Notes under the pieces: generated by a model
What the model was told of the DNA's origin: nothing
The model's input: the letters and a program-made list of their open reading frames with translations, nothing else
The model's database searches: none
Position numbers and translations under genes: made by a program
DNA from: a virus
Virus record (IMG/VR): IMGVR_UViG_3300046516_000374
Coordinates: 1 to 24,058 of that record
Reading direction: 5' to 3' (one strand)
Length of the DNA: 24,058 bases
Part shown: piece by piece, positions 4,754 through 24,058 of the stretch
Layout: each line of letters begins with the position of its first letter
Position numbering within the stretch: position 1 is the first letter of the stretch

Positions 4754-5515
4754 TCAGGCTAAATCCTGTGAGGCGATCTGGCACAGGAAATCGCACGCGG
4801 GCGCCAATGGATTGAGCGTCGGCCAGTTCGCCGGTATCTCGTCAATGAATATCCGCTCGTTGGCGATCCGCGTCAGTCGCGCACCAAGCCGCCGCGAGAG
4901 TTCCGCCATGCGCGAGAACTGAGCGGGGAAGTGCAGACGCATCGCGGACCAGTAATCCGGCGACGTGGCCTTGCCGCACGGGAGGCAGTTATTATTTTGG
5001 AAACCTAACGAATACATCACGGGCAGCGCGATCCCCGCGCCCTGAACCATCGCGAGACAGGCCGCCTTGTCCAGTCCCGCCGTGATCAGCGGGTTCTCGA
5101 TGGTCAGTTCGTGGAACACCTTCGCGAGCCGTTCGGCGCGGGTCTGATCGGTCGCATCGCAGGTGTAGCCAAAGATGTGAATATCATCGGCATACTGAAA
5201 CGCATGACGCGGCGCGACTTTGAGAATGCCAGTGCAAGGTGCTCCGTCTGGCCCGGCTATGAACCGGCGCCGCTCCCATACGTCCCAGGTGTCCTCATAC
5301 TCATCTGAGTGCAGTCGGATCACGGATACGCCCCACCAGCGTTCGCAGTCGCGTAGGAAGCGTTCGTTGTCGGGATGCTCGGCGCGGGTTTCGCAGTAGG
5401 CCACCACGCCGCCGGGGTGGCCGCGCAGATCGAGCGCGATGGCAACCGCGCTAGCGGCACCGCAGCCGAACCAGCGGATGCGGCGTCGTTCCATCAATGC
5501 CCCTTTGTTGAACAT
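4754..5515 (-). CDS. PAPS-reductase-family (PP-loop) protein with degenerate loop
   Basis: 253 aa from ATG 5515 (overlapping the upstream TGA), or 246 aa from ATG 5494, which has AAAGGGG 5 nt upstream. The N-terminus has the adenine-nucleotide alpha-hydrolase fold order: strand, PP-loop position, helix (WFGCGAASAVAIALDL), then a CETRAEHPDNERFLRDCERWW segment. The usual SGGxDS loop is replaced by CGAAS (residues 18-22). Further on are GYTCDATDQTRAERL and a QNNNCLPCGKA CxxC motif. The layout recalls a PAPS-reductase-like family with a CGAAS loop found in phages and bacteria. Because the SGG is missing, ordinary PAPS reduction is doubtful; thiol-based nucleotide or nucleic-acid chemistry is possible. 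It is separated from the canonical PP-loop gene at 17028. Confidence 0.65.
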   Translation of the reverse strand: MFNKGALMERRRIRWFGCGAASAVAIALDLRGHPGGVVAYCETRAEHPDNERFLRDCERWWGVSVIRLHSDEYEDTWDVWERRRFIAGPDGAPCTGILKVAPRHAFQYADDIHIFGYTCDATDQTRAERLAKVFHELTIENPLITAGLDKAACLAMVQGAGIALPVMYSLGFQNNNCLPCGKATSPDYWSAMRLHFPAQFSRMAELSRRLGARLTRIANERIFIDEIPANWPTLNPLAPACDFLCQIASQDLA

Positions 5516-6122: not shown

Positions 6123-6223
6123 CCCGCGAGCCACCACGCCACGGCGATGATCCCGCCCCACACGACGGCCAGCGCGGCGATGATCGTGAGCCACACCCGG
6201 ACGATCTCACGGTCCAGCGGCAT
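6119..6223 (-). CDS. 34-aa single-helix membrane microprotein
   Basis: ATG 6223 overlaps the upstream TGA (TGATG) and TGA 6121-6119 overlaps the next GTG. The product has a charged start (MPLDREIVRVW) and one hydrophobic helix rich in Ile, Ala, Val and Trp (LTIIAALAVVWGGIIAVAWW). It resembles small inner-membrane peptides. The chain of coupled junctions on both sides supports translation. Confidence 0.5.
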   Translation of the reverse strand: MPLDREIVRVWLTIIAALAVVWGGIIAVAWWLAG

Positions 6224-6648
6224 CACGGATCGTTCGCCTTGGGCGCTTGCTGCGCCTTGCGGAGCGCGTCGATGGCGTCCTTGGCATTGTCCTGGTCTTG
6301 CCGCGTCGCCCTTCCGTCGCGGTCGATCATTCGTTGCGTTGATTTGTGCGCTGCCCGCTCGGCCCGGTAAATCTCGCGGATCTGATCGGCGGTCGCACCG
6401 GGGTATCCAGCCGAGTCGGGCACGTTTCGTTCTTCCTCGCGGTAGGCTTTCACCGCCCTGCCCGCCCTGGACTTTGGCGGGGCCACGTCGGGCGCCCGCA
6501 GGATGATGATGCGCTGCACAATCGGCGGCGTCGGCGCGATGGCGAGCGGCGCGGGCTTCGGGGCGCAGCGCGTCAGGACCGTCGCGACCATCAGCAGCGC
6601 GATCGCGGCCAGCGTCTCGACAACCCTGCGGCCTGAATGGTCGATCAT
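6223..6648 (-). CDS. Membrane-anchored periplasmic-type protein, spanin-like candidate
   Basis: 141 aa from ATG 6648 (ATGA overlap). After a short basic N-terminus comes a hydrophobic helix (VETLAAIALLMVATVL) ending in TRCAPKPAP. The Cys looks like a lipobox position, but the Arg at -1 makes lipoprotein processing unlikely. A Pro-rich linker and a long charged helical region follow (about residues 60-141). N-terminal anchor plus periplasmic helices and the location among other small membrane proteins suggest a spanin or Rz-type component of lysis, but there is no sequence match I can name. Confidence 0.45.
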   Translation of the reverse strand: MIDHSGRRVVETLAAIALLMVATVLTRCAPKPAPLAIAPTPPIVQRIIILRAPDVAPPKSRAGRAVKAYREEERNVPDSAGYPGATADQIREIYRAERAAHKSTQRMIDRDGRATRQDQDNAKDAIDALRKAQQAPKANDP

Positions 6649-7127
6649 CGCCCCCTCGGCACCAGTGGCAACGGCACGCTATGCCCCTCCAACCCTTTCA
6701 CCCGCTCATCCAGCCGCGCCCGCGCCTCGCTCGCCAGCGCATCTGCCTGATCCAGCGCCCGCCGCGTCTCAGCGACGATCCGCACGTTGTTGTCCATCGC
6801 CGCCCGGATGTCGTTCATCCGCTTGTCCGCCTGGACGATGTTCTCCTGCAGGCGTTTGATGTCTTCCTCGGCCACATCCAGGTCTTTCCGAAGTGTCTCG
6901 ATCTTCGGCTCAAGATGAACCTCGATTTTCGTCTCGACCCGATCCACCTTGCCGGCGATGCCGTTGACCGAGGCATACCATAGAGTCACGGTCACTATGC
7001 CGCCGAAGATCGCGGACGCGCCGGCCATGATCGCCAGGGCGAGGCCAAGGTTGACCCGTATCCAGAGCGCGAGGGAGAACCGCGGCGGCTCGTAGGGGTG
7101 TTCATCGACAATGACCCGGCGCTCCAC
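6645..7127 (-). CDS. Membrane protein with long coiled coil
   Basis: 160 aa from GTG 7127, directly after the TGA of the 25-aa ORF. Residues about 17-52 are hydrophobic (LALWIRVNLGLALAIMAG and TVTLWYASVNG). Residues about 60-145 form an extended charged coiled coil (VDRVETKIEVHLEPKIETLR and on). This recalls i-spanin-like or tether proteins that bridge the periplasm, or a membrane-bound oligomeric scaffold. It lies in the block of small membrane proteins between the tail fibres and the second PP-loop gene. Confidence 0.5.
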   Translation of the reverse strand: MERRVIVDEHPYEPPRFSLALWIRVNLGLALAIMAGASAIFGGIVTVTLWYASVNGIAGKVDRVETKIEVHLEPKIETLRKDLDVAEEDIKRLQENIVQADKRMNDIRAAMDNNVRIVAETRRALDQADALASEARARLDERVKGLEGHSVPLPLVPRGR

Positions 7128-7205
7128 TCACGCCCGCACCAACAGCCACACCAGCATCGCGGCCATGGCAACCAACGCGACCGGAAGCCATCGGATGTAG
7201 TTCAT
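7128..7205 (-). CDS. 25-aa single-helix membrane peptide
   Basis: ATG 7205 overlaps the TGA of the upstream gene (ATGA), and its TGA is immediately followed by the GTG of the next gene. The peptide MNYIRWLPVALVAMAAMLVW + LLVRA is one complete membrane helix. It is too short to assign; lysis regulators and small envelope peptides are of this size. It could also be only a coupling leader. Confidence 0.4.
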   Translation of the reverse strand: MNYIRWLPVALVAMAAMLVWLLVRA

Positions 7206-7441
7206 CGCCGGCCCGGCAGGCCGATGCCGCCTATGCAACCGAGTAGGTCAAAGCACAATACAATCAGCCAGATTATGACCACCGCCGCGATCAACAGGTT
7301 CACGATCCGCATGGGAACGGACATATCGAACCCAAGAAGGCCCAATATCCAAGGCACAAGGAGCCGCAGGATACCGACCACCACGGCGACAATCACGATT
7401 TGGATGAGTAAATTCTCTATGAAGGAAAGTGAAAAGCACAT
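7202..7441 (-). CDS. Small multi-pass membrane protein, holin candidate
   Basis: 79 aa from ATG 7441, with GAGG and AGGA just upstream. Two strongly hydrophobic stretches (NLLIQIVIVAVVVGILRLLV and IVNLLIAAVVIIWLIVLCF) are separated by a short turn (GLLGFDMSVPM), and the tail is Gly/Arg-rich. Size, two-helix topology and position after the tail-fibre genes fit a class II-like holin that forms membrane lesions at lysis. No holin family signature is visible, so this is inferred from topology and context. Confidence 0.5.
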   Translation of the reverse strand: MCFSLSFIENLLIQIVIVAVVVGILRLLVPWILGLLGFDMSVPMRIVNLLIAAVVIIWLIVLCFDLLGCIGGIGLPGRR

Positions 7442-7455
7442 TGCCTCGGGTCCTT

Positions 7456-7974
7456 TCAGTGCGGATGAGCCTCGCCGCGTTCCATTTGAAAATCGTGCTC
7501 GTCATGCACACTGACCTGCTTGATCAGCATGTCCAACCGCGCATCCGTCCGCGCGTGCGCGGCCATCAGTTCCGCGTGGGCCTGCGTCACCGCCGCCTCG
7601 CGCCTCGCGACCTGTTCGAGGCGACCGGTCAGGTTTTCGATGTGGCCGTTGATCTCGGCATCACGCACGCTGCCAAACGCGATCTTCGCCTGCATGTCCG
7701 CGATTATGCGCTCGTATATGTCATACCGATCTTTCATGACGCGCGCCGGCAACAACTCGTCCCGGCTCTTCAGGTCAGCGGTAATCTCGGTAATCCGGTC
7801 CTGACGGTTCCATTGCTGACCCAAATTAAACGCCGCCGCCAGCGCCGCCAAAAAGACCGTCGCGACAATCGCCCAGTTGACCGCCGGATGCCAGGAACCG
7901 TCCTCGCGCGTCAACAGACCACGCCTCGCGCGCCGTTCCGGCCCCTCATAAGTGGGACGGTCGTTACCGGACAT
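7456..7974 (-). CDS. Single-pass membrane protein with periplasmic coiled coil
   Basis: 172 aa from ATG 7974. A charged cytoplasmic N-terminus (MSGNDRPTYEGPERRARRG) precedes one membrane helix (about 33-53, NWAIVATVFLAALAAAFNLG). A long helical region follows (RDAEINGHIENLTGRLEQVA, then TDARLDMLIKQVS) and a His-rich tail (HDEHDFQMERGEAHPH). It may be an i-spanin-like or other lysis-block component. It overlaps the tiny ORF 7964-8041. Confidence 0.5.
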   Translation of the reverse strand: MSGNDRPTYEGPERRARRGLLTREDGSWHPAVNWAIVATVFLAALAAAFNLGQQWNRQDRITEITADLKSRDELLPARVMKDRYDIYERIIADMQAKIAFGSVRDAEINGHIENLTGRLEQVARREAAVTQAHAELMAAHARTDARLDMLIKQVSVHDEHDFQMERGEAHPH

Positions 7975-8063: not shown

Positions 8064-10268
8064 TCATTGGACCTCGATCGAGTCGATCCGTGCGCTCGCG
8101 TGCCACACGTCCGTCGTATTCGCCGTTGGTGGCGCGAACGTCAGCGACAGGCACCCGTTCGTGATATCCGCCGTCGCCGCTACCGCCGCGCCCGTCACCG
8201 TGCCGCGCGTCAGAATGATCGGCGTGCCCAAAGTCACCGCCGTCGAGGCGACACCCGTATCCCGAACCATCATGTTGTTGGGCACATACCAATCGTAGTC
8301 TTGCCCCGGCGTCGTGAAATTCCGCGCGTGCAGCCTGACCCCAAACCCGAACGCGGTGTTGTTTGGAATATCGAGGCAGTTCGTGGCTCCCGCCGCCGCG
8401 CCACCTGACGTGAGCCGGAATGCCGCCGCCGTGGAACCGCTGCCGAACATCACGGCGTTGCTCCATTGCGAATCCCCGCTTGCGCCGATCTGCCCGTTCG
8501 CCATGACCAGAATGCCGGTCCTCCCCCTGTCCGCCGAACTCTTCCCGCCTGGCGATACGGAGAACTGCCCAGACAGCGCGTTGAGCGTGCCGCCGGAAAC
8601 CGTCGCGGACAGGCCCGCCGCCGTGTTGGACGAACCAAATGCCACGGCACCACTGGCCGATGCGGTCTGCGAAGTGTTCCCGCGTGTCAGTTGCCCATCG
8701 AACGAGTTCGCCCCGGTCACCACGCCGGTCCCTGGCGCCACCGTCGCCGATAAAGTGCCCAGCGTGGAAACGCCATTCTTGTAGAACAGCGACTGCGGCA
8801 GGCGCGTCGAAGTCCCATCGACTACCCACGTCCAGCCCCACTCCTGCCCGTTGCCGTCGATGGTGATCCCGGTGTCCACCATGCCCGCCGGTCCAATGGT
8901 CACGTTGGTATCGGCTGTCGTGTTGGTCTGTAGGTGAAAGCTGCTTTGACGTCCGGCGTCGATACAAAGCCCCTTGCCCACGCCAGGACCAGGACCGAAG
9001 ATGCCGCCGCTGACCACGATCCCGAACGGCTTGGACGGGGCATCCTGCGAGGTCATGCGGAACGCACAGAATCCCGTGTAGGGATTGCTCAGTTGCATCT
9101 GCGAGATGTCGATGTCGTGGATCGCGCCGCCGATCGAGGTTGTTGAGCCAATGGTCATCAGGTCGGCCAGCACGCTATCCGGATTGCCCTCGGTGCCCTC
9201 GATGCGAAGCCCGACGATCTTGTAGTTGCTGATCCCCGTCGTGGCGTCGTTTCGGATAACGAGTCCAGGGCCGTGCGGGCCGTAGATATTGATCGCCTGC
9301 ATGTTCATCGGGTTGCCGCCAATGGCGCCGACCGAATGGAACTCGATGGCGGGGATCGTCGTGTCGCCGGAACTCGCGCAATGAATATTATTCAGCACGC
9401 CCTCGCGAACGAACCCATTACCTGGCACGTTCTTCGGTGTGCCGAACGAAATGCAGCCGCCCTTGACGAACAGCATGGAGACGTTTTCAAGCACCGGCTC
9501 ATCCGTGCGATCGTAGAAGTGCAGCGCGTATTGCGCGGCCACCGCCGTCCGATTGCCGACGATGCCGATGTTCTTGACTGTTGGACCCGTGAAGCTGGTG
9601 TTCACGTTCAAGGTATTCGGGGCACCCGTCGATCCGTCTCCCCAGGCCTCGGACCAGGAGAACAGATCACCCGTGTAGGTGCTGTCCATGATGACCCAGG
9701 ACTTGTATTCACCGTCGCCGAGGACGCCACCGCTCGTGCGCGTCGTAAACTGCGGGAGCGCGCCGTTCGTGCCTTTGATCCGGTATTCGCCGGGCGGGAT
9801 GTAGAGGATGTTTGGCGTGGTCCCGACCGCGTTGAGCGTGTTGACTCGTGCGATGGCGGCGGCGAAGGCGTTGCGATCATCGGTCACGTTGTCGCCAACG
9901 GCGCCGTAGTCGCGGACATTGATGCGCTCGGCGAAGCGGGCCGCGTCAGTGCGGGCCGTCGTGGAACCCGTCGCCGTGGAGGTCGCGGCACTGGTATCGC
10001 CGGTCAGTGAACCCGCTGACAGTGTCGTGAAAGCGCCATTCACGGCGGTAAATGATGTAAAGTTCCCTGTATTCGGAATAGTGCCGCCAATCGGCCCAGG
10101 CGACGACAGGTCAACCGCTCCTCCGGCACTCAAATCCAACTTTCCGGCGAACGCGGCATTAAGTTCCGCGGCACTTGGCCGATATCCCGTTGGCCAGTTA
10201 GGCGCCGATTGCGGCCATGCTACCATCGGAAGTAATACGGCGACACACGCCAGGAGCCATTGTCTCAT
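8064..10268 (-). CDS. Tailspike/tail-fibre protein with signal peptide and pectate-lyase-type beta-helix
   Basis: 734 aa from ATG 10268 (ATGA overlap). Residues 1-20 are a Sec-type signal peptide (MRQWLLACVAVLLPMVAWPQ). Residues 22-45 (APNWPTGYRPSAAELNAAFA...) match the start of the mature part of the protein at 21452-23188. After a Ser/Thr/Gly/Ala-rich linker, INVRDYGAVGDNVTDD (about 116-131) is the classic entrance of the pectate-lyase-type beta-helix of phage tailspikes, followed by repetitive beta-strand sequence to about 460. The C-terminal 250 residues are Gly/Ser/Ala-rich and end in a small beta domain. It probably binds and may cut a surface polysaccharide. A signal peptide on a virion protein is unusual. 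Confidence 0.75.
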   Translation of the reverse strand: MRQWLLACVAVLLPMVAWPQSAPNWPTGYRPSAAELNAAFAGKLDLSAGGAVDLSSPGPIGGTIPNTGNFTSFTAVNGAFTTLSAGSLTGDTSAATSTATGSTTARTDAARFAERINVRDYGAVGDNVTDDRNAFAAAIARVNTLNAVGTTPNILYIPPGEYRIKGTNGALPQFTTRTSGGVLGDGEYKSWVIMDSTYTGDLFSWSEAWGDGSTGAPNTLNVNTSFTGPTVKNIGIVGNRTAVAAQYALHFYDRTDEPVLENVSMLFVKGGCISFGTPKNVPGNGFVREGVLNNIHCASSGDTTIPAIEFHSVGAIGGNPMNMQAINIYGPHGPGLVIRNDATTGISNYKIVGLRIEGTEGNPDSVLADLMTIGSTTSIGGAIHDIDISQMQLSNPYTGFCAFRMTSQDAPSKPFGIVVSGGIFGPGPGVGKGLCIDAGRQSSFHLQTNTTADTNVTIGPAGMVDTGITIDGNGQEWGWTWVVDGTSTRLPQSLFYKNGVSTLGTLSATVAPGTGVVTGANSFDGQLTRGNTSQTASASGAVAFGSSNTAAGLSATVSGGTLNALSGQFSVSPGGKSSADRGRTGILVMANGQIGASGDSQWSNAVMFGSGSTAAAFRLTSGGAAAGATNCLDIPNNTAFGFGVRLHARNFTTPGQDYDWYVPNNMMVRDTGVASTAVTLGTPIILTRGTVTGAAVAATADITNGCLSLTFAPPTANTTDVWHASARIDSIEVQ

Positions 10269-11335
10269 AATGCCGTCACCGCCCTGAGTTCCGGCACCTG
10301 AAACGCCCTTGGATAGTAGCGTATCCGCTGGTCCACGCCATCCTGTGCCGCCGACCTGACGACGCCAAACTTGATCAGAGTGAACGTCGGGATGGCGGTC
10401 AAAGTAGAAAAAACAACTGGCCCACCGTTCAGAGACACAGATATGACCTTCGTCGCGGCGACATAAGTCATTCCCAATTTTTGCTTTATGTTCGCGCTGA
10501 TCGATCCTGTCGCGTTGAACTGGCCGGAGTTCACGTTGGCGACAAACGAAAACATGGTGATGCCGGCATTGGCGATACGGGATACCAGGGTGTTACTGAC
10601 ATCGGTTTGCAGATTCGGCAGATCGACGGTCGTGTTGATTTGCCGCTGCATGAAGTCCACGATCAGCGTGCCTTCCACGGCATTGAACCACGCGCCCGTG
10701 GGAAGTGTGCCGCTGTCCACCGCGCGTGTCGCCGCTCCCGCCGTGGTTGGAATGTAGCTTGTCGGATAGGCCGATTTTTCCAGTTGGAACCTTGTCAGCG
10801 ATCCAGCGACCGTCACGATGAAAGTCCCCGCCACGGTCACTGTGAACACGTTCGGCACACCCGCCGACGCCACGCCAAGCCCTGTCGCCGTCCCCGTTCC
10901 CGCGCTCGATGTCGCCGTTCCGGTGCCAATGGTCCAGAGCGTGTATGTCCCGGTCGTGAGTGATCCCGTTGTCTGCGTGACCGCGACACCGCTGTTCAGC
11001 AGGAAGTTGGTTCCGGCGTTCTCTTGCAACAACCCGGTTGTCGTGTTGATGCGCGGGGCGTTGGCGAGGAACGTGTTAAAGCCACTCCCGGCCGCGTCGG
11101 TGTAAAGCCCGTCCGTCGCGGTGTTGTTGGCTCGCGTCCACGTCACCGAGGCGTCCAGCGTGGCGGACAGGAGGTTCAGGTCCAGGGAGGGAGGATTGCC
11201 CGGCACACCAGCCCATTGTGGCCCCGGCTTGAACTTCTGTAGGCCCGTGGGGCCGCCAGTGGGAACGGGTTGCGCGAAGGCGCTCGGTGCCAGGAGAGAG
11301 GCACCAGCGGTCAGCAGGGCGCGGCGACGATTCAC
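10265..11335 (-). CDS. Tail fibre with Tat-like signal peptide and lectin-like domain
   Basis: 356 aa from GTG 11335 (GTGA overlap); the longer frame to 11437 reads through the neighbour. The N-terminus VNRRRALLTAGASLLAPSAF plus AQ has a twin-arginine run, a hydrophobic core and an AFA cleavage site, typical of alphaproteobacterial exported proteins. The middle (TNFLLNSGVAVTQTTGSLTT..., FQLEKSAYPTSYIPTTAGAA, TRAVDSG) is a carbohydrate-binding-like block often found in phage tail and appendage proteins. The C-terminal half (EGTLIVDFMQRQ...) resembles a concanavalin/LamG-like beta-sandwich. It is probably a host-binding fibre and overlaps the following tailspike by 4 nt. Confidence 0.65.
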   Translation of the reverse strand: MNRRRALLTAGASLLAPSAFAQPVPTGGPTGLQKFKPGPQWAGVPGNPPSLDLNLLSATLDASVTWTRANNTATDGLYTDAAGSGFNTFLANAPRINTTTGLLQENAGTNFLLNSGVAVTQTTGSLTTGTYTLWTIGTGTATSSAGTGTATGLGVASAGVPNVFTVTVAGTFIVTVAGSLTRFQLEKSAYPTSYIPTTAGAATRAVDSGTLPTGAWFNAVEGTLIVDFMQRQINTTVDLPNLQTDVSNTLVSRIANAGITMFSFVANVNSGQFNATGSISANIKQKLGMTYVAATKVISVSLNGGPVVFSTLTAIPTFTLIKFGVVRSAAQDGVDQRIRYYPRAFQVPELRAVTAL

Positions 11336-11820
11336 TTCAAGCCGTATCCGCTGAACGGGTGCGCCGAGTCTGAGGAAACTACCGAAACGGCTCCGGCCGC
11401 TGGTGTCACGACATAAGCTGCGCCGGGCACGATACACGTCGTATCTCCACTCGATGTTGTCCCAGTCGCCGCGCCAATCTCATTTATACATAGATTCACG
11501 GTGGCGGATGGCGGGTTTTGGAGCCACCCACCAGCCGCGCGATTGCCCGCCGCGATGGCGGTAACGGCGGCGGCACCAGTCGTCACGGTTTTTACGTCTA
11601 ATGTAACAATCGTGAGCGCCGCCGGTTTCGTCGCGATGGTTCCGAGTGCGCCGCCGGTCACACAGATATGCCCCGTCGTATCCATATAGCCGTTCATCCC
11701 TGACCCGACGCCGCCGGAGTTGTTGATCGTGTCGCACGAAGCGACCACCTGATACGGCTGCGCCTGAGCCGCGAGCGGCAAGAGAAGCCCAATGGCGAGA
11801 AGAAGGCGCTTCATTGTCAC
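11332..11820 (-). CDS. Small exported protein of the fibre cluster
   Basis: 162 aa from GTG 11820 (GTGA overlap) or 160 aa from ATG 11814. Either start gives a clear Sec signal peptide (MKRLLLAIGLLLPLAAQA with cleavage before QPY). The mature part is beta-rich, with Gly/Ala/Thr repeats and four cysteines (SCDTINNSGG, HICVTGG, NLCINEIG, TTCIVPG) that may form disulphides. No family is recognised. It lies between two fibre genes, so it may be a fibre tip, adhesin or fibre-associated protein. Confidence 0.55.
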   Translation of the reverse strand: MTMKRLLLAIGLLLPLAAQAQPYQVVASCDTINNSGGVGSGMNGYMDTTGHICVTGGALGTIATKPAALTIVTLDVKTVTTGAAAVTAIAAGNRAAGGWLQNPPSATVNLCINEIGAATGTTSSGDTTCIVPGAAYVVTPAAGAVSVVSSDSAHPFSGYGLK

Positions 11821-14924: not shown

Positions 14925-17028
14925 CGGGCTTCACCTGCAAATATTTCCCAGGTCGTGCCGGATCTGGAACATACCAGTTCTTGTCTGGCGCGAGCCGAGC
15001 GCCTGGAACCGGCGGTTGAGGACCGGTCTGCGGCGATCCCTTCGGCATTTCTGGCGCTGGACCTTGGCCCGCTGGTTGCTTCATTTCCTGCGAAAGCGGG
15101 TCATAGATCGGCGCGAAGGCTCCTTTCTCTTTGTAAAACTGTGCCTGCCACCCAGGAGGCAACATCCCGGTATCTGGATTGACATTGTGCATGGCGTGCA
15201 TCGCCATGTCGCGATTGTAGGTGAACTGAGATCGTGCCCATCCAAGGACGCGCTCAATGGCGTTCGGATCGGTCGCGATGCCAGGTTGCGTGTGGATGAA
15301 ATGTTCGATCTTAGCGTCAGTAATCGCGCTATCCTTACCGATCGCGTTTTGGAGGATCGTGCCTGCCACGACGCCAAGCGTCTTTTGCGCCGATTGGATG
15401 TTGCCGACCGCGTTTGGATCGATACCAAGTGTGCCAAGATCGACGCCGAGCGACTTCCCCGCCGCCGCCGCCGTCGCGAGCCACGGGGCGAAGTATCCAG
15501 CCGGGATGCCACCCTTGGCCGCTTCATGCAGTTGGTTCACGCCATAGTCTATGTTGCCGATGGCGTTGTCCGCCTCAGACCCGAGGGATGCCATCTTGCC
15601 AAGCGTGGCAACGGCGGCCTCGCCGGTTTTCGTGCCTTGCGCGCCAGCGGATGCCCTGGCTGCAACGGCTGGATTATCAGCCGGAACAGGCGTTGTTACG
15701 GTTCCTCCTGGATTGATAACATGAAGACTTCCGCCAGGATCGATAATAGGGCGTCCAGTTGGAGGTATAATAGGCTTCCCCCCCCGTGCTTCATAAACGC
15801 CAGTGCTTGGATTGATTCTGTAATCAAGAAGCGGCGTCGCCGCGCTTTTCTGTTCTCCGGTGTTTTGTTCAGTTTGAATGCCACCCGCGCCAATCGTATA
15901 GCGTGGCATCGGCGTCGCCGCACTCGTTTGAGCCCCTGTGTTCTGATTGGTCTGAACCCCGGTGCGGGGATCAACCCTGAAGGTATCCAACCCAAGCAAC
16001 GTCTTGGCCAGTTCCATCTGCGCCTGCGCGCCCTTCATCAGCGCGGGATTGTATTGGTTGCGCGGATTGGACATGACGTCGATGGACCGCTGCATCATGT
16101 CGAGTGCCTGTTGGCGCGTGTATTGCTGCGGTGCCGCGCCTCCTGGCGCTCCCGCGGTCTGCCCGCTCGATGGCGGCGGTATCTGAACCTGCGCGTTCGG
16201 ATTGACCCCTGGCGCACCCGGAGCCGCCGGCCCGGCCACATCCGTTCCACCTGTCCGTCCCGCCACACCCTGACCGCCCGAAACCACGGGCACGCCGCCC
16301 GCGTAGCGCATGACATGCTGCACGTAGTTCGGGTCACCGCCGCCGTTGTAGTTCTTCAGCGCGGCCTCGACGTTCGCTGGATTGGAGAAGTCGGTGCGCG
16401 GACCGCCACGCGCCTTCAGATAATCGGCGGCGAAGTTGATGTTCGCACGAGGATCGCGGAGCGTCGCGGGATCGACGCCGGCCATGCCAAAGCCAGGACT
16501 TTGCGCTGTAGCGGGCAATATTTGATGTAGCCCGATCTCACCCGCGCCGCCGGTCGCGTTCGGGTTGAAATTACTCTCCTGCTTACCTTGCGCGATCAGC
16601 ACGTTGACGGGAATGCCCGTTCGCGCCGATGCCTCCTGATAATATGGCAGATATTCCGCCGGCAGACTTCCGCCCGCTCCACCAGTCGGAACATCGGCGG
16701 ACGCTTGCGGCGCGGATGCCGGCGATGGTGCCGCGACGCCCCCAGGCGCCCCACCGCGAAGATACTGCATCTGGTTTGTCGTGTCGGCATTCCGCTGATT
16801 GACGATATCCTGGATGCTGCTCATGCCCTGGTTCTGCATGTAGCCGCCAAGCAATGCCTGCGCGACGCGACCGATCCCGGCCCACTTCGACCCGACCGGC
16901 GCGGTGTTGGTGCCCTCCTGCATCAACGCCTGTGCCATCTGAAGACGCGGCAACGCGGCGGCGAGCGCCGGATCCTGGTTCATCTGCGAACCCATGAGCG
17001 CCTGGACGAGAAGATCGGAACTCGCCAT
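14917..17028 (-). CDS. Virion lytic transglycosylase / ejection protein
   Basis: 703 aa from ATG 17028 (TGATG overlap). Residues about 125-235 form a soluble-lytic-transglycosylase domain: YYQEASARTGIPVNVLIAQG, then KQESNFNPNA with the catalytic Glu at about 151, GEIGLHQILPATAQ, and ANINFAADYLKARGG. The enzyme cleaves peptidoglycan glycan strands, so that DNA can cross the periplasm at infection. The N-terminal 100 residues are Gln/Ala-rich helices. A Pro/Gly-rich linker and a duplicated 17-residue repeat (357-399) come next. The C-terminal part is helical (LGKMASLGSEADNAIGNIDY...) with a Pro-rich end. It is much longer than a free transglycosylase (about 150-200 aa for the domain), which points to an internal virion protein. 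Confidence 0.75.
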   Translation of the reverse strand: MASSDLLVQALMGSQMNQDPALAAALPRLQMAQALMQEGTNTAPVGSKWAGIGRVAQALLGGYMQNQGMSSIQDIVNQRNADTTNQMQYLRGGAPGGVAAPSPASAPQASADVPTGGAGGSLPAEYLPYYQEASARTGIPVNVLIAQGKQESNFNPNATGGAGEIGLHQILPATAQSPGFGMAGVDPATLRDPRANINFAADYLKARGGPRTDFSNPANVEAALKNYNGGGDPNYVQHVMRYAGGVPVVSGGQGVAGRTGGTDVAGPAAPGAPGVNPNAQVQIPPPSSGQTAGAPGGAAPQQYTRQQALDMMQRSIDVMSNPRNQYNPALMKGAQAQMELAKTLLGLDTFRVDPRTGVQTNQNTGAQTSAATPMPRYTIGAGGIQTEQNTGEQKSAATPLLDYRINPSTGVYEARGGKPIIPPTGRPIIDPGGSLHVINPGGTVTTPVPADNPAVAARASAGAQGTKTGEAAVATLGKMASLGSEADNAIGNIDYGVNQLHEAAKGGIPAGYFAPWLATAAAAGKSLGVDLGTLGIDPNAVGNIQSAQKTLGVVAGTILQNAIGKDSAITDAKIEHFIHTQPGIATDPNAIERVLGWARSQFTYNRDMAMHAMHNVNPDTGMLPPGWQAQFYKEKGAFAPIYDPLSQEMKQPAGQGPAPEMPKGSPQTGPQPPVPGARLAPDKNWYVPDPARPGKYLQVKPGG
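15832..15960 (-). repeat. Duplicated 17-residue repeat in the transglycosylase protein
   Basis: GVQTNQNTGAQTSAATP (residues 357-373) and GIQTEQNTGEQKSAATP (383-399) are near-identical tandem units separated by 9 residues. A related INPSTGVYEARGGKP unit follows. They probably form a repetitive beta or linker segment. Confidence 0.6.
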
Positions 17029-17762
17029 CAGCGCGCCTCCCGCAATTCACGAGCGAGGTTCGCGATCGGTCCTTCGATCTCGTGCGCCACGATCCGCAAT
17101 CCCGCCATGTAGTCCGCGAACAGTTCCGGATGCCTCTCGCGCAGATACGCCGCGCGACCCTCGCCCCACCAGGCCGTACAGCGGGCACACTCAGGGGCGT
17201 TGGTCATGTGGTCGTAGATCGCGTTTCGAGGCGCCCCCACGTCCCGCAGGTAGGCTTGCACGTCCACGTGCGACCAGTCATCGACCGGATGCCAAATCTC
17301 AATGCCCTCGACCACGTCACCGGAGTTCGTCGGCGGGTGCGGCACGTCGCACTTCTTGGTGCCGCGAATTAGCAGTGTGTTGCCGTCCTCCTTGATCCGA
17401 TTGAAGATCGGCCACATTAAATTTGTGAAGCAACAATGATATCGTGTCACTAGTTTTGCGCCGGTCTCTTTCGATAGCACTGCCAGACCGTGTTGCGAAT
17501 AAGGAAGCAAATCGGTCGGCGTGCCATATTCCGCGATCCATCCGCGAACGTCGCTCTGGACACGAACGAAGTTCGGGCACATGGCCTCAACCTCATCCAC
17601 AACGGCACGGGTCTCCGGCATGTTGTCGCCGGTTTCCATATAATACGCGGTCATTCTGTGCAGATGGGCGCGCAACAAATACAGGCACGCCAGAGAATCT
17701 TTACCACCTGAAAACGAAATCGCAACATTCTCATGCCGGTCCAATGGCGACAGGTCGATCAT
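17028..17762 (-). CDS. PP-loop ATPase / PAPS-reductase-family protein
   Basis: 244 aa from ATG 17762, chosen over ATG 17786 because it overlaps the methyltransferase stop (ATGA). The N-terminus NVAISFSGGKDSLACLYLLR carries the intact PP-loop (SGGKDS, residues 18-23) of the adenine-nucleotide alpha-hydrolase superfamily, which binds ATP or PAPS. Later blocks are TRYHCCFTNLMWPI, LLIRGTKKCDVPHPP and a PECARCTAWWGEGRAAYL CxxC element. Members include PAPS reductases, tRNA-thiolation enzymes and DndC of DNA phosphorothioation; the fold alone does not tell which. Lying between a methyltransferase and an ejection protein, it is more likely a nucleic-acid or nucleotide modification enzyme than part of sulphate assimilation (inference). 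Confidence 0.7.
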   Translation of the reverse strand: MIDLSPLDRHENVAISFSGGKDSLACLYLLRAHLHRMTAYYMETGDNMPETRAVVDEVEAMCPNFVRVQSDVRGWIAEYGTPTDLLPYSQHGLAVLSKETGAKLVTRYHCCFTNLMWPIFNRIKEDGNTLLIRGTKKCDVPHPPTNSGDVVEGIEIWHPVDDWSHVDVQAYLRDVGAPRNAIYDHMTNAPECARCTAWWGEGRAAYLRERHPELFADYMAGLRIVAHEIEGPIANLARELREAR

Positions 17763-18433
17763 GCGCGCCGCATCTTCCACGCGCACACGCGAAGATCGTT
17801 GAATATGCGGTCATATTCCGCGTCGTCGCCGTAAGCCTCGCGGAACGGCGCATCGTCGGCGTTCAGATACCACCAGCAATCCGGCATCCATCCCGCTTCC
17901 CGCGCGTGGAACTCCATCGCATCGCGCGAGATCGCCCGCGCCGACAGTTTCGCCTCGAACAGATCATTGTCGCCGTGTGTCCGCTCGTAGTCATAGACAA
18001 ACAGAAATCCCCCCGGCTTCGTGATGCGGGCCGCCTCGGCGAGCGCCACAGGGAAGTCGGCATGACACAATGAATAGAGAAACATGCAGCCGTTCACCCG
18101 CGCATCGAACAACGGGATATCGTGCATGTCGCAAAGCACGGGCCAAAAGCCGCGCGACTTCAACGGTCCAAGGGAGAGTTGCAGCCGGTTCTTGTTCACC
18201 AGCGCGAAGAACAGATCAGGCCGCTCGCGGCGCATCAGCCGCGCGACCTCACCGATCCCGCAACCGACATCCGCGATCACGGCGCCCTGCGAAGGCGCCA
18301 TCAGACGCAAGAGTTCCGAAACATGCCCCGCTTCCGTATCGGCCAACCGCGCGCCCTGGAACACCCGCACGCCGGTTGCCATGAGCGCCTGCGTCGCCAC
18401 GTCCAGGATGGCGTTGGACAGTTCCGGCGCCAT
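17759..18433 (-). CDS. Class I SAM-dependent methyltransferase
   Basis: 224 aa from ATG 18433 (TGATG overlap). Motif I VIADVGCGIGEVARLM (residues 52-67) is the SAM-binding Gly-rich loop. The following FFALVNKNRLQLSL, LCDMHDIPLF, NGCMFLYSLCHADFPVAL and ITKPGGFLFVYDYE correspond to motifs II to VI of a Rossmann-type methyltransferase, nearest in style to small-molecule or lipid methyltransferases. No DPPY/NPPY motif of DNA adenine or N4-cytosine methyltransferases and no PC motif of C5 enzymes is present, so a DNA target is not indicated. The substrate is unknown. It is translationally coupled to the PP-loop gene. Confidence 0.75.
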   Translation of the reverse strand: MAPELSNAILDVATQALMATGVRVFQGARLADTEAGHVSELLRLMAPSQGAVIADVGCGIGEVARLMRRERPDLFFALVNKNRLQLSLGPLKSRGFWPVLCDMHDIPLFDARVNGCMFLYSLCHADFPVALAEAARITKPGGFLFVYDYERTHGDNDLFEAKLSARAISRDAMEFHAREAGWMPDCWWYLNADDAPFREAYGDDAEYDRIFNDLRVCAWKMRRA

Positions 18434-19750: not shown

Positions 19751-19908
19751 CACTTAACCCATGCTATCATGGCATTAAGGCTAAGAATGATAAGAGCCAT
19801 CAAGCCGATAGAAGTCCAGTCATCCGGCGATAACGGCCCTTCGGCAGCGACCGAACAAATCGCTAACCCAGCTATCGTATCGTATAAGAAAATGAGGACC
19901 CTGAGCAT
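19750..19908 (-). CDS. 52-aa two-helix membrane protein
   Basis: ATG 19908 overlaps the TGA of the gp10-like gene, and its own TGA overlaps the ATG of the GNAT gene (both TGATG). The product opens MLRVLIFLYDTIAGLAICSV, has a short polar loop (AEGPLSPDDWTS) and a second helix (IGLMALIILSLNAMIAWV). It is an inner-membrane hairpin. Finding such a protein inside the tail-gene block is unexpected; a role in virion entry, superinfection control or lysis timing is a guess. Confidence 0.5.
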   Translation of the reverse strand: MLRVLIFLYDTIAGLAICSVAAEGPLSPDDWTSIGLMALIILSLNAMIAWVK

Positions 19909-21455
19909 CAGAGCGCGTTGCCCCCCTCAAGCCGAAGATCCGTTCTGAGCCACTGGACGGCCTCCCGCGCCGCGATGGCGATGCCCCACCCGAGCGCCGT
20001 TCCCGACCCGCCGCCAACCCGCCAGCGCGGATCGATGTTGACCTCCGTTGACCACGGTGACGTATCCCACGGTGACGTGTCCCACGGCGATCCCGTCGCA
20101 CTCGACACCACCGGGATCGGAATGTTCGGATCGACATAATCGAAGCCGACCCGGAAGTTGTAAGAGACGCTTGAAATGGCCTGCAACACCGGGCGCACCG
20201 CCGCGAGCCGCTTACGCTGGGCTGTGCCGAGTTTGTTCCACGCCTGTTGAGCCATCGCCTGGACCGGCGCTCCCGCATCCTGATTGCCGGTGTCCGCCTG
20301 GTAGACCGTCCCGTTCGGACCGCCGAAATAAAGCCGGTCGTTGAACAACCCCCAGCACGAAGCGTTCATTCCCTTGTAGCGGCACCACGGCTGCGTTTGC
20401 AGTCCCGTGTTGCACACGTGCTGGTCAAATGTCCCATCAGAGTTGGGAATATTGAAGATCAGCGCACGGCCGCGGGGATAGAAGATCGCCTGCCATCCGA
20501 ACGCGGTCTGGTTCGCGGCCACGGCGATCTGCACCGCCTTGGATACTTTCGACCGCGGCGGCATCTGTCCGTTGCGCAGCGCACTGAACATGGCATTGAA
20601 CGACAAATGATCGTCGAACGTGGTCACGAAGCTGTCACCACCATAGTCCGCGACCGCTCGCGCGGAAACGGGAGGCGACAACCGATAAGTTCCGACCAAT
20701 GACCATGCCGTGATCAGCGCCGGATCGTTACCCTGGAACAGCAGACAGTCGCCGGATGACATGACGAACGAGGCGTAGTTGATGACGCCTGTCCCGCCAT
20801 CGTAGGACAAGCTGCGCATCGCCACCAGGAAGCCGCCACGGGGGCAGAATGGCCCGAGATCATAGAACGACAGAGCCCCCGAGATCGAGTTCAGCGGCGC
20901 GAACCAAAAGCCGGACGATCGCTGTGTCCAGAAAAAAAGCCGCTGCTGGTGCAGCCAAACGCCATACAGCGTCGATGTATCGACGCCAGTGAACGAAGCA
21001 TCCACGAACGTCGTGCCGTCGTAAATCTTGGCCGGATCGGCACCGTTGACGAAGAACGTCCGGTTGAGGAACCCCGCCGTCTGCCAGCGTGCGTTGCTGA
21101 AGCCGGTGCCAAGCAGGTTGGGCGTGCTGTCGCCAATCTCGAATACGCTCCCGCCGCACGCCGCCACGAGGTCGGAAACCTCCGTCGCCGGATGCGCGCC
21201 GGAATTGAACTCCGCCAGTGTCTCGACCGGCCCGGCGCCCATGCCGCTGGCGAACTGGATGAAGCCGCCACGCACGTTCATCCCACCGCCGGCATCGGGG
21301 AACCAGTTGTCCAGTGTGACAGCGTCCAGCGGGTCCATGCCGTCCAGGCTGTCGCGTGTGTTCCACCCGCCGCCGGGCGATGGGATGGAGACGGGCGCTG
21401 TGATCGGCGCCGTCGCGTTCTGTAGCCGTTGCTGGCGGGACAGGATGGCGGTCAT
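19908..21455 (-). CDS. P22 gp10-like tail / DNA-stabilisation protein
   Basis: 515 aa from ATG 21455 (ATGA overlap). The N-terminus (VSIPSPGGGWNTRDSLDGMD, DAVTLDNWFPDAGGGMNVRG) and a series of beta repeats (GVWLHQQRLFFWTQRSSGFW, GLFNDRLYFGGPNGTVYQAD) follow the pattern of the phage tail-hub/stabilisation proteins that close the portal channel after packaging. A short SPWDT tandem repeat lies near the C-terminus (about residue 455-470), with DPRWRVGGGSGTALGWGI after it. No enzyme motif is present. Position after the gp4-like gene supports the call, although a tailspike gene is inserted between the two. Confidence 0.6.
   Translation of the reverse strand: MTAILSRQQRLQNATAPITAPVSIPSPGGGWNTRDSLDGMDPLDAVTLDNWFPDAGGGMNVRGGFIQFASGMGAGPVETLAEFNSGAHPATEVSDLVAACGGSVFEIGDSTPNLLGTGFSNARWQTAGFLNRTFFVNGADPAKIYDGTTFVDASFTGVDTSTLYGVWLHQQRLFFWTQRSSGFWFAPLNSISGALSFYDLGPFCPRGGFLVAMRSLSYDGGTGVINYASFVMSSGDCLLFQGNDPALITAWSLVGTYRLSPPVSARAVADYGGDSFVTTFDDHLSFNAMFSALRNGQMPPRSKVSKAVQIAVAANQTAFGWQAIFYPRGRALIFNIPNSDGTFDQHVCNTGLQTQPWCRYKGMNASCWGLFNDRLYFGGPNGTVYQADTGNQDAGAPVQAMAQQAWNKLGTAQRKRLAAVRPVLQAISSVSYNFRVGFDYVDPNIPIPVVSSATGSPWDTSPWDTSPWSTEVNIDPRWRVGGGSGTALGWGIAIAAREAVQWLRTDLRLEGGNAL
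20052..20089 (-). repeat. 15-bp tandem repeat encoding SPWDT units
   Basis: CCACGGTGACGTATC (20052-20066) is repeated as CCACGGTGACGTGTC (20067-20081) and in part again to 20089. It encodes SPWDTSPWDTSPWST in the gp10-like protein. Copy number could vary between relatives. Confidence 0.7.
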
Positions 21456-23188
21456 GAATCACCGCCGCAGCGATACGAAATCTGCGTGCCGCTGATATCG
21501 CCGGTCGCGGTCAGTCGCCACACGCCGCCCGTGACCTGAACCGTCGAGAACGGCGAGGCGATGGAAAGGCCGAACTGGCATGTCATCAGCGGAATAATGA
21601 CCGGCAAAGTGACGGTGCAAGTAAAACCAGCCGCCGTCCCGACATTGATCCCGCCATTGATCGTGCCGTTGATTACCGCGCCCGCGCCGCACGCGCTGAC
21701 CTGTGCCAGTGGTGGATTGTCCCATTGATTAAGCTGGTAGCGAACCGAACCGCCCCCGGACAAAGCCACCGCCGGCGTTTGTATTCCAACACCGGTGTTG
21801 TTCGCGATCACGCCGAGTTGTGACGGATACGGCCCGGCCACGACCTCGTTAAATCCTCGGAACGTGCTGTCAGCCAGCATGAAGTCCTGGATGTTGTTGG
21901 TCTTGATTCCATGCGCGTGAACGCTTGGCGTGAGCGCATAGCCGATATCGACGCCGCGGATATGCACGAGCGCATTGCCGGCGGAGACATTCACGAAATA
22001 GTGATCGACGCCGGTTTCACCCAGGCCAATCCCGCCCAGCACGCCGCCGGTCATGTAAAGCGATGACCCGGAACTCTGGAACCAATCACCGGATGCCGCG
22101 CCACTGAAATGATCCAGCACGAGGCCAGACGTGGCGCCCATCTGGAAACAGTTGCTCACATCGGCCGCGCTGCCCAGGTTCTGGATACCGCACTGCGGCG
22201 TGAAGCCGCGTAGCACGTTATTGAGGCTCCAGTTCGCCCCCGACGCCGTGGCGTCGATGATCGTGCCGACGCTGTCCCAGTTGACGTCGATGATCGACCC
22301 TTCGATCGTGGCACCGGCCTCGACCTTGAAGCCATATCGCCACGCGAACGCCTCACTCGACCCCACGTTGATCGTTACCCCAGGACCGGTCTGCGCCGTG
22401 GCGCGGTAGATCGCGTTGACGTGCGCGGCGGCACTGATCGCCGTGAAGCAAGCGGGCGTGGAATTGCAAATGTCGAACCACGGCGTCGGAGAGAAGCGGG
22501 CGTTGATGAAGTTGAAACTGTCGCCGGTCTTGGACAGGCTGAAAGCGGTCTTCACGGCATAGACGTTGAAGTCGGAGAACTGCATGTTCTCCCATGAGAC
22601 GTTGGGCGTCTCGACAAGGAACTCGTAGGCGTTGATGACGGTGAAGTTGTCCATCTTCGCGTGGTGGCATTGCACGGTGCCATTATCGCCGATGGTGGAA
22701 GGATAGACCGTCGTGCCGTTCGTCTGGTTCGGATAGTAGAAATTGACGCCAGTGATCCGCCAGTTCGACCCGCAGGTAAACGGTTGCAGCGACGTACTCT
22801 TGAGCAGCAGCGTCGTGCCCATGCTGATCGCTTTGTTGAACGATCCGGCCGGAAACCCGACACCCTCTATCGTGCAGTTGGCCAACGGCATCGTCGTCAC
22901 CTGGCCATCCATGTTGATCTGGCCAAGCGGCAAATACAGGTGCGCGCCCTGTTGCGAGCACGCCGTCACCGCCGCCGTCATGGCCGCGCCATCTGGCGTC
23001 ACCCCATCCGCCTTTACGCCGAAATTGATGGCATAAAGCCCGAACTTGCTGTTCACGTCCTGCTTGGACGCCCATTCCGCGTTGACCTCGGCGGCGGACG
23101 GACGATAGCCGGTCGGCCAGTTCGGCGACGATTGCCCCCAGGCCGCGAACGGGATCAGGCAGAACGCGAGGAGAAGCAGCTTCTTCAT
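21452..23188 (-). CDS. Tailspike-like protein with signal peptide and beta-helix
   Basis: 578 aa from ATG 23188 (ATGA overlap). The signal peptide MKKLLLLAFCLIPFAAWG ends before QSSPNWPTGYRPSAAEVNAE, which matches the start of the mature part of the protein at 8064-10268. FGLYAINFGVKADGVTPDGA is a pectate-lyase-like entry strand. Parallel beta-helix-type repeats follow (TIEGVGFPAGSF, WRITGVNFYY, MDNFTVINAY, ENMQFSDFNVYAV). The C-terminal domain has paired cysteines (ACGAGAVINGTINGG, GFTCTVTLPV, MTCQFGLS, SYRCGG). It is likely a receptor-binding or depolymerase fibre. It is wedged between the gp4-like and gp10-like genes, where P22-like phages normally have none. Confidence 0.7.
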   Translation of the reverse strand: MKKLLLLAFCLIPFAAWGQSSPNWPTGYRPSAAEVNAEWASKQDVNSKFGLYAINFGVKADGVTPDGAAMTAAVTACSQQGAHLYLPLGQINMDGQVTTMPLANCTIEGVGFPAGSFNKAISMGTTLLLKSTSLQPFTCGSNWRITGVNFYYPNQTNGTTVYPSTIGDNGTVQCHHAKMDNFTVINAYEFLVETPNVSWENMQFSDFNVYAVKTAFSLSKTGDSFNFINARFSPTPWFDICNSTPACFTAISAAAHVNAIYRATAQTGPGVTINVGSSEAFAWRYGFKVEAGATIEGSIIDVNWDSVGTIIDATASGANWSLNNVLRGFTPQCGIQNLGSAADVSNCFQMGATSGLVLDHFSGAASGDWFQSSGSSLYMTGGVLGGIGLGETGVDHYFVNVSAGNALVHIRGVDIGYALTPSVHAHGIKTNNIQDFMLADSTFRGFNEVVAGPYPSQLGVIANNTGVGIQTPAVALSGGGSVRYQLNQWDNPPLAQVSACGAGAVINGTINGGINVGTAAGFTCTVTLPVIIPLMTCQFGLSIASPFSTVQVTGGVWRLTATGDISGTQISYRCGGDS

Positions 23189-24058
23189 GGTTGTCCTGTC
23201 TGCGGGCCGTACCCCGTCTCGGGAAGCTGAAACGGACCGATCAGGTGCAACCCATCCATCGGCGTCATGTTCAGGATCGGCGCCCCGCCATCGGTCGCCA
23301 GAGCCTTGCTGACCTGACGCTCGTATTCGTCCAGTTCCTCATTGTAGGACAGGCCCAGACGCCGCAGCAGGCGGTATTTGAGCGATAGCCGGATCAGATA
23401 TTCAAAGGTCGGATCGACCGATACATCGGTGTCCGCGCGCCATGAGTTCTGCGGTATGCCGTCCATCGACTGGCACCAGCCCGCCGACACATACTCAAAC
23501 ACGAACTGCGCGCCATCATCGAACGGCGTCGGATCGATGGACAGGAACGTGCGAAACGCCGGCACATCGCCAACGCCCTCCGTGCCGATCGACCCGCCGA
23601 CCTGCGTGCCGCCCTGAGAGTAGACGCTGCGGAACCGGAAGCGCCGCTGGATCGAGGCGCGGCCAATCACGGAAGACTTGTAGATCTGCCATTGCTGCGG
23701 CGACAGCGGCCCGCGCATGGCCCAATAGCGGGATCGGTCCCAGAACGTATTGTCCACCGGACGATCGAAGTCCGCCGGCAGCGGATAGTTGGCCTGACCG
23801 AACTGGAATGTCCCGGCGCCGGTGACTGACGATTTCAGGCTCAGCGTGATCTTGTTCGGCGTCGGTGTGGACATCGTGATCGGCGGCTCGACGAGGCGAA
23901 TGATCGCGTTGTTTGGGATACCGGTGCCCGCCGCGATCCACAGATCCGGAGAGACCAGTTCAATCCCGGACAGGCCGCTGATGACCGCTGAGTTGCCCAC
24001 GTTCGCCACCGTGCCGTGTTGCGGCAGCACGGCGACGGACTGGAAATTGAACTCGCGG
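23185..24058 (-). CDS. P22 gp4-like head-tail adaptor, 5' end beyond the window
   Basis: At least 290 codons; the frame is open to the window end (REFNFQSVAVLPQHGTVANV...), so the start is missing. The conserved-looking core is YPLPADFDRPVDNTFWDRSR, GPLSPQQWQIYKSSVIGRA and IDPTPFDDGAQFVFEYVSAG. It ends with a helical EYLIRLSLKYRLLRRLGLSY, NEELDEYERQVSKALA region and GGAPILNMTP. This resembles adaptor or tail-accessory proteins encoded just before the gp10-like gene in P22-type podoviruses, though gp4 of P22 is shorter (166 aa). Naming rests on this pattern and position. Confidence 0.5.
   Translation of the reverse strand, partial: REFNFQSVAVLPQHGTVANVGNSAVISGLSGIELVSPDLWIAAGTGIPNNAIIRLVEPPITMSTPTPNKITLSLKSSVTGAGTFQFGQANYPLPADFDRPVDNTFWDRSRYWAMRGPLSPQQWQIYKSSVIGRASIQRRFRFRSVYSQGGTQVGGSIGTEGVGDVPAFRTFLSIDPTPFDDGAQFVFEYVSAGWCQSMDGIPQNSWRADTDVSVDPTFEYLIRLSLKYRLLRRLGLSYNEELDEYERQVSKALATDGGAPILNMTPMDGLHLIGPFQLPETGYGPQTGQP

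Follow-up and report, generated by a model that had tools for sequence, protein, structure and literature searches.

The virus record IMGVR_UViG_3300046516_000374 (positions 1 to 24,058; the whole 24-kb stretch is called the window) carries the structural and tail genes of a soil-type tailed phage on its minus strand. Within the fibre cluster, directly downstream of a collar-domain tail fibre, lie genes for proteins of 162, 356 and 734 amino acids, each of which starts with a leader resembling a bacterial export signal. These three had been picked out in a sequence-only reading of the window; the observation held but proved too narrow, as a fourth leader-bearing protein of 578 amino acids, encoded between two tail genes, had been missed. 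By their position in the tail operon and their fibre or spike folds the leader proteins are of the fibre and tailspike type. Coordinates are given in Table 1. The leaders are conserved and family-specific, the proteins that follow them have even cysteine counts, and leaderless fibres start at the point at which a leader would be cut; together these features make the leaders very probably functional export signals of the general secretory (Sec) or twin-arginine translocation (Tat) type.

Leaders in the window and in related phages

Leaders were called by a written rule, by the NCBIfam Tat model (for three relatives) and by conservation. A Sec signal had been claimed for the 162-amino acid protein, and its leader is indeed of textbook form; a Sec leader was found in all 18 intact homologues, varied in sequence and constant in layout. 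Both this leader and that of the 578-amino acid protein have a short, basic n-region, a hydrophobic core (h-region) and small residues at −3 and −1. The Tat-like signal proposed for the 356-amino acid protein was likewise upheld: a twin arginine is followed by hydrophobic residues, a mild h-region and an AxA site, and RR, LL and A-x-A|QP are invariant across six homologues. The curated Tat model TIGR01409 gave no match to this leader in the window; its cut-off was reached by relatives of 413 and 1130 amino acids in locus L032 and of 858 amino acids in L125 (L numbers denote the loci of relatives). In L032 three consecutive fibre genes bear the Tat motifs SRRTFIK, SRRDFVY and NRRDFIH, and two of them pass the NCBI model. 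For the 734-amino acid protein the claim of a Sec signal stood in part. The n- and h-regions of its N-terminus, MRQWLLACVAVLLPMVAWPQSAPNW, are clear, and a good cleavage site is lacking in the window copy and present in the spikes of L129 and L131, which are 61–64% identical to it and carry the same leader with a good site, MRKWLLACVALFLPMAAHA, cut before ACD (AHA|A). In L129 and L131 the N-terminal region after the leader differs from that of the window spike. The collar fibre was correctly described as having no leader.

All four leader genes start within 4-bp ATGA or GTGA overlaps with the stop codon of the preceding gene, and their starts are therefore fixed. The 356-, 734- and 578-amino acid genes offer no in-frame start with a usable ribosome site downstream of the leader and ahead of the mature part; the 162-amino acid gene has one weak internal candidate, a GTG at codon 25. 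Between the window and L128 the Tat leader shows seven synonymous and two non-synonymous codon changes, indicating conservation at the protein level.

Relatives were collected by two routes. The N-terminus of the collar fibre, which is conserved in 80 IMG/VR loci, was used to fetch those loci, and a query with the 162-amino acid protein gave 20 loci from other phage groups. One fixed rule assigned leaders to 17 of the 96 genes that occupy the first three slots downstream of the collar fibre and to 1 of the 357 genes upstream of it (Fisher p = 1.6e-11), and at least two leader genes followed the collar fibre in 6 of 54 relatives (L024, L030, L032, L036, L037 and L092). Fibre genes adjoining homologues of the 162-amino acid protein were often leader-bearing too. 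Contractile phages are included, as judged by a tail sheath beside the leader genes in L134 and by Baseplate_J and Mu gp48 in L003; L136 has a head-tail connector of podophage type. When named phages (INPHARED) were searched with the 162-, 356- and 578-amino acid proteins, leader proteins of two relatives and the anchor peptide described below, nothing useful was returned; the 734-amino acid spike was matched over its beta-helix only, and a 1394-amino acid protein of L142 weakly. Cultured phages therefore have few or none of the leader-bearing proteins tested. A plasmid search with the 162-amino acid protein gave no match.

The predicted choice of route, Sec or Tat, follows the protein family. 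The family of the 356-amino acid protein is related to the head spike fibre of the Rhodobacter capsulatus gene transfer agent (RcGTA; profile E = 9e-26, and 2.7e-10 for L135 alone), with which it has a domain in common (GhsB/Rcc01080, PDB 6tb9), and the NCBIfam model NF048003 (GTA_spike_fiber) was matched above its cut-off by the relatives in L125 (1.3e-68) and L220 (1e-42). Counted by distinct N-termini in IMG/VR, about 50 members of this family are leaderless, and 17 of the 18 leader-bearing ones have a twin arginine, compared with 0 of 12 leaders in the 162-amino acid family (p = 1.5e-7). The hydrophobicity of the leader core is also lower in the 356-amino acid family (1.94 versus 2.59; p = 1e-4), a milder core being the usual difference between Tat and Sec leaders. 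The RcGTA fibre itself begins with a short hydrophobic anchor peptide (PMC7296036), unlike the window family with its twin-arginine leader and AxA site. Weak Sec flags on the leaderless head-spike-fibre relatives in L178, L187, L191, L198, L203 and L209 were judged spurious by eye. The leaderless N-termini in L178 and L187 show a glycine-rich hydrophobic stretch (MSYFGIPIRNGVSIGLGSIVSLASQG) like the RcGTA anchor IALGLGLGL. Separately, Tat-leader relatives in L147, L148, L153, L161, L167, L197, L212, L219, L220 and L222 have a conserved cysteine pair immediately behind the leader (QCVTD...VDACxGGV), which may form a disulfide-bonded anchor loop.

Cysteine content and mature N-termini

Even cysteine numbers are favoured in bacterial exported proteins (PMC7678975 and references there). 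In a curated set the cysteine count was even in 36 of 37 Sec-leader proteins, or about 22.7 of 23 after clustering (p = 1e-7), whereas in the control, genes of the virion region that precede the collar fibre, 107 of 206 counts were even (52%), as by chance. In the curated table the 193-amino acid entry for L132 is that of another gene of the same length with six cysteines; the true one has four, and parity is unchanged. A fully automatic set of all strict Sec-leader genes gave 31 even counts out of 35 (p = 1.7e-6). Cysteine density per 100 residues was three to four times higher in mature Sec-leader proteins (1.76) than in 356 upstream genes (0.52), and among proteins with the motif PxWxxGYxPSAxEWN it was 1.33 in leader-bearing and 0.46 in leaderless members (p = 0.003). 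Two cysteines were gained or lost jointly in the spikes, with AVC...CRI in L129 and L131 and AVG...YRI in the window. Cysteine enrichment with even parity is the signature expected of periplasmic disulfide bonding. In the 162-amino acid protein, for which the structure model was usable for residues 70–162 only, C111 and C129 are placed on strands modelled with confidence; Foldseek found similar folds only in uncharacterised phage proteins. The mature part of the 356-amino acid protein contains no cysteine. DsbA has been reported as a host factor for Klebsiella phage and was read there via host receptors (PMC13412088); it is not used as support here. Consecutive leader genes of a different phage group, in L139 and L142 (5762-14496), encode mature proteins whose counts are all even (4, 6 and 4 in L139; 4, 6, 12 and 24 in L142). 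A fibre-cluster protein in L037 (12351-14138) has a lipobox-like leader (ALFTYA|C) and eight further cysteines, and may be a lipoprotein.

The 734- and 578-amino acid proteins, otherwise unrelated, have a 48-residue leader-plus-anchor module in common: the leader of the former is joined to SAPNWPTGYRPSAAE, the anchor that also follows the leader of the latter. The same motif, PxWxxGYxPSAxEWN, is found at the N-terminal end, or close to it, in at least 18 fibres that lack a leader (MSSSPNW, MGSNPAW, MPSSPNW and others), which in nearly all cases begin 6–19 residues before the W; the one in L011 lies, like the 578-amino acid gene of the window, between the tail A and tail B genes. Cutting the 578-amino acid leader at AWG|Q would leave QSSPNW, with W at residue 6, which is the spacing of the leaderless fibres. 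As the predicted mature N-termini match those of leaderless fibres, the mature proteins would be more than secreted enzymes, namely fibres of the virion, and the position of the motif suggests that it is a virion anchor. Leaderless homologues with a conserved later start had been named beforehand as a finding that would speak against true leaders. Such versions were found for the anchor module (18 or more), but they belong to other proteins, so that the leader is an optional add-on rather than a mis-called start. In L010, whose tail B gene is 99% identical to that of the window (best tblastn segment), the counterpart of the 578-amino acid protein keeps the module nearly unchanged and is about 40% identical over the remainder, a pattern that is usual for fibre modules. 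The C-terminal part of the 734-amino acid spike, for which the AlphaFold model was poor (predicted local distance difference test score 37), is also found in L034, in a leaderless spike encoded directly downstream of the collar fibre. A scan of GTDB with the anchor pattern matched one contig, which was taken as a chance match.

Gene order and neighbouring genes

On the minus strand the order begins with tail tubular A (23185-24057), the 578-amino acid gene, the tail B/P22 gp10-like gene and an acyltransferase-like gene; a structural protein, a transglycosylase-bearing injection protein and a second large protein follow, and the fibre cluster, with the collar fibre as its first gene, closes the series with the 162-, 356- and 734-amino acid genes. 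The tail B gene fixes the phage type as short-tailed, and the window is probably a fragment of such a phage. Alphaproteobacterial P22/T7-like podophages (Sulfitobacter phiGT1, Rhizobium RHph_Y25 and Bradyrhizobium ppBjS10J-1) have tail A, tail B, acyltransferase, structural protein, injection proteins, collar fibre and spike in the same order as the window but, unlike it, no credible leader on their fibre and spike genes. The phiGT1 spike, starting MLYRIQSTALGQ..., matched the leader rule marginally and was rejected as unlike a signal peptide. Sulfitobacter, Rhizobium and Bradyrhizobium are the hosts of these named relatives, which makes an alphaproteobacterial host probable, but not certain, for the window phage as well.

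Table 1. Positions of the leader proteins, their leaders and anchors, and two neighbouring tail genes in the window
Feature	Position	Strand	Remarks
162-amino acid Sec-leader protein	11332..11820	-	GTG at 11820; C-terminal beta-sandwich, invariant Cys pair C111, C129
Predicted Sec leader of 162-amino acid protein, MTMKRLLLAIGLLLPLAAQA	11761..11820	-	Textbook Sec layout; cut before QPYQ
356-amino acid Tat-leader fibre, relative of RcGTA head spike fibre (GhsB)	10265..11335	-	PHROG tail protein phrog_5939, 6.5e-19
Predicted twin-arginine leader of 356-amino acid protein, MNRRRALLTAGASLLAPSAFA	11273..11335	-	GTG at 11335, overlapping TGA of 162-amino acid gene; AxA site before QPVP
734-amino acid tailspike-like protein	8064..10268	-	ATG at 10268; leader, anchor, pectate-lyase-type beta-helix, C-terminal domain; Pfam PF12708, 2.4e-13
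Sec-like leader of 734-amino acid protein, MRQWLLACVAVLLPMVAWPQ	10209..10268	-	Poor cleavage site in window copy
Putative anchor motif of 734-amino acid protein, WPTGYRPSAAELN	10158..10196	-	Directly after leader
578-amino acid leader-bearing fibre	21452..23188	-	Between tail genes A and B; 12 Cys in mature part
Predicted Sec leader of 578-amino acid protein, MKKLLLLAFCLIPFAAWG	23135..23188	-	Complete Sec signal
Putative anchor motif of 578-amino acid protein, WPTGYRPSAAEVN	23081..23119	-	Directly after leader
Tail tubular B/P22 gp10-like protein	19908..21455	-	phrog_5107, 6.5e-76; homologues in Bradyrhizobium, Rhizobium and Sulfitobacter podophages
Collar-domain tail fibre, 310 amino acids	11817..12749	-	No leader; Pfam Collar PF07484, 9.9e-7; PHROG tail/virion families

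Several other genes were noted in passing. A 3′-phosphoadenosine-5′-phosphosulfate (PAPS) reductase/ATP-pyrophosphatase-like gene (17028-17786, minus strand; Pfam PF01507, 9e-11) lies inside the structural operon, is kept in L012 and L013, and has a methyltransferase-like gene beside it (17759-18433). A second PAPS reductase/ATP-pyrophosphatase-like gene (4754-5515, minus strand) was recognised by eye only. Past the fibre cluster, genes with hydrophobic N-termini (6223-7974, minus strand) resemble a lysis cassette; they encode a proline-rich protein of 141 amino acids with a possible lipobox, single-transmembrane proteins of 160 and 172 amino acids, and a 79-amino acid protein with a transmembrane segment.

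Proposed export and assembly route

We propose that the four proteins are fibres and spikes of a short-tailed phage, together with a small fibre-associated beta-sandwich protein, and that they are made as pre-proteins. Three would leave the cytoplasm via Sec and the head-spike-fibre-type protein via Tat; the leader would be removed by signal peptidase, and the Sec substrates would fold and form disulfides in the periplasm. Virions would meanwhile be assembled in the cytoplasm, and the mature fibres would meet them at lysis, attaching through the N-terminal anchors that are also used by leaderless fibres. We put the probability of the full chain, from export through attachment to the virion after lysis, at roughly 55–60%; leader cleavage, disulfide formation and above all the post-lysis attachment are steps that we infer from sequence. 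P22 spikes attach late, to finished particles, in vitro, which makes the last step feasible.

Several points weigh against this proposal. The leader calls come from our own rule and not from SignalP, and the cleavage site of the window 734-amino acid leader is poor (no AxA, and P/Q where the site should be). Even counts are not favoured in Tat-type proteins (4 of the 8 with any cysteine), and their cysteine density is low, which is expected if folding precedes export and gives no positive support either. The window 356-amino acid protein scores 20 bits against the curated NF048003 cut-off of 36, so that, with L125 and L220 passing, it is a divergent relative and not a formal member. All these phages are metagenomic, and to our knowledge post-export attachment has been shown for no tailed-phage fibre.

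The sequence-only reading had offered exported adhesins or depolymerases rather than virion parts. Its first half was sustained by the conserved leaders, the family-specific Sec/Tat split and the cysteine parity. As a full explanation, it would have soluble adhesins, depolymerases or esterases accumulate in the periplasm and be freed at lysis, to act on capsule or cell-surrounding matrix, or to shield progeny. Such a role would take in the export indicated by leaders and even cysteine counts; the beta-helix and SGNH-esterase folds suit free enzymes, and the leaderless collar fibre could be the sole receptor-binding protein. We nevertheless regard it as possible but clearly the less probable outcome, since a free enzyme needs no virion anchor and the anchors right after the leader match the N-termini of leaderless fibres and would be exposed by leader removal. 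The 356-amino acid family is moreover kin to the RcGTA head spike fibre, and the anchors, beta-helix and head-spike-fibre domains recur in leaderless virion fibres, as do the C-terminal spike domains in leaderless spikes at the same gene position; the second half of the claim thus found no support. The other suggestion of that reading was that the hydrophobic leader serves for anchoring or trimer nucleation. In that case it would stay on the protein and plug into a virion or membrane socket or nucleate trimers. A real parallel exists within this fibre family: residues 2–10 of the RcGTA head fibre (IALGLGLGL) fit into hydrophobic pockets in the base of the spike (PMC7296036). The poor cleavage site of the 734-amino acid leader would also suit such a use. 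We consider it unlikely. The RcGTA peptide has no arginine pair, basic n-region or AxA site, whereas window-type leaders keep AxA|Q and confine Tat motifs to one family; such an anchor predicts no AxA sites, twin arginines or even, pairwise cysteines; and the anchor motifs come after the leader and occur without it.

Exported phage proteins encoded beside tail genes are known in lambda Lom and Bor, the only point in favour of lysogenic-conversion cargo (morons), that is, host-surface proteins exported in lysogens. The genes here belong to the late tail operon, where they overlap their neighbours by 4 bp; two to four of them stand in a row, they replace or accompany fibres, and they bear putative virion anchors. 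We think this origin more unlikely still. That the leaders arise from wrong start codons or chance hydrophobic N-termini is scarcely credible: the contigs are metagenomic and the predictor home-made, but against this stand the translational overlaps, the fact that three of the four genes have no rival start codon with a ribosome site, the background of 1 in 357, the leader in every intact 162-amino acid homologue and the protein-level conservation of the Tat leader.

Virion proteins with cleavable Sec leaders are known from the Ff phages (pIII, which has disulfides, and pVIII). Ff phages assemble at the membrane without lysis, unlike the window phage, a tailed phage with cytoplasmic assembly, and no homology was found or expected. 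Signal-arrest-release (SAR) or Sec-exported endolysins and spanins are late phage proteins that use host Sec. An example is given in PMC8951688; these are lysis enzymes without fibre anchors, unlike the window proteins. No earlier description of signal peptides, Tat or DsbA in connection with tail fibres or spikes was found in the open-access literature.

In the textbook account the assembly of tailed phages is wholly cytoplasmic. We give about even odds to the broader view that many uncultured tailed phages, short-tailed and contractile, send adhesion fibres through host Sec or Tat and complete their virions at or after lysis, and, jointly with that routing, to fibre folding and oxidation in the periplasm forming one half of a split, two-compartment assembly line. 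If this is true, the host-range proteins of a large group of uncultured phages would depend on host Sec, Tat and Dsb; such fibres would not be expected to fold in the cytoplasm and would come to the particle from across the membrane. A leader together with an even cysteine count would be a simple sequence mark for them, and leader-bearing fibres may offer stable, disulfide-bonded phage adhesins.

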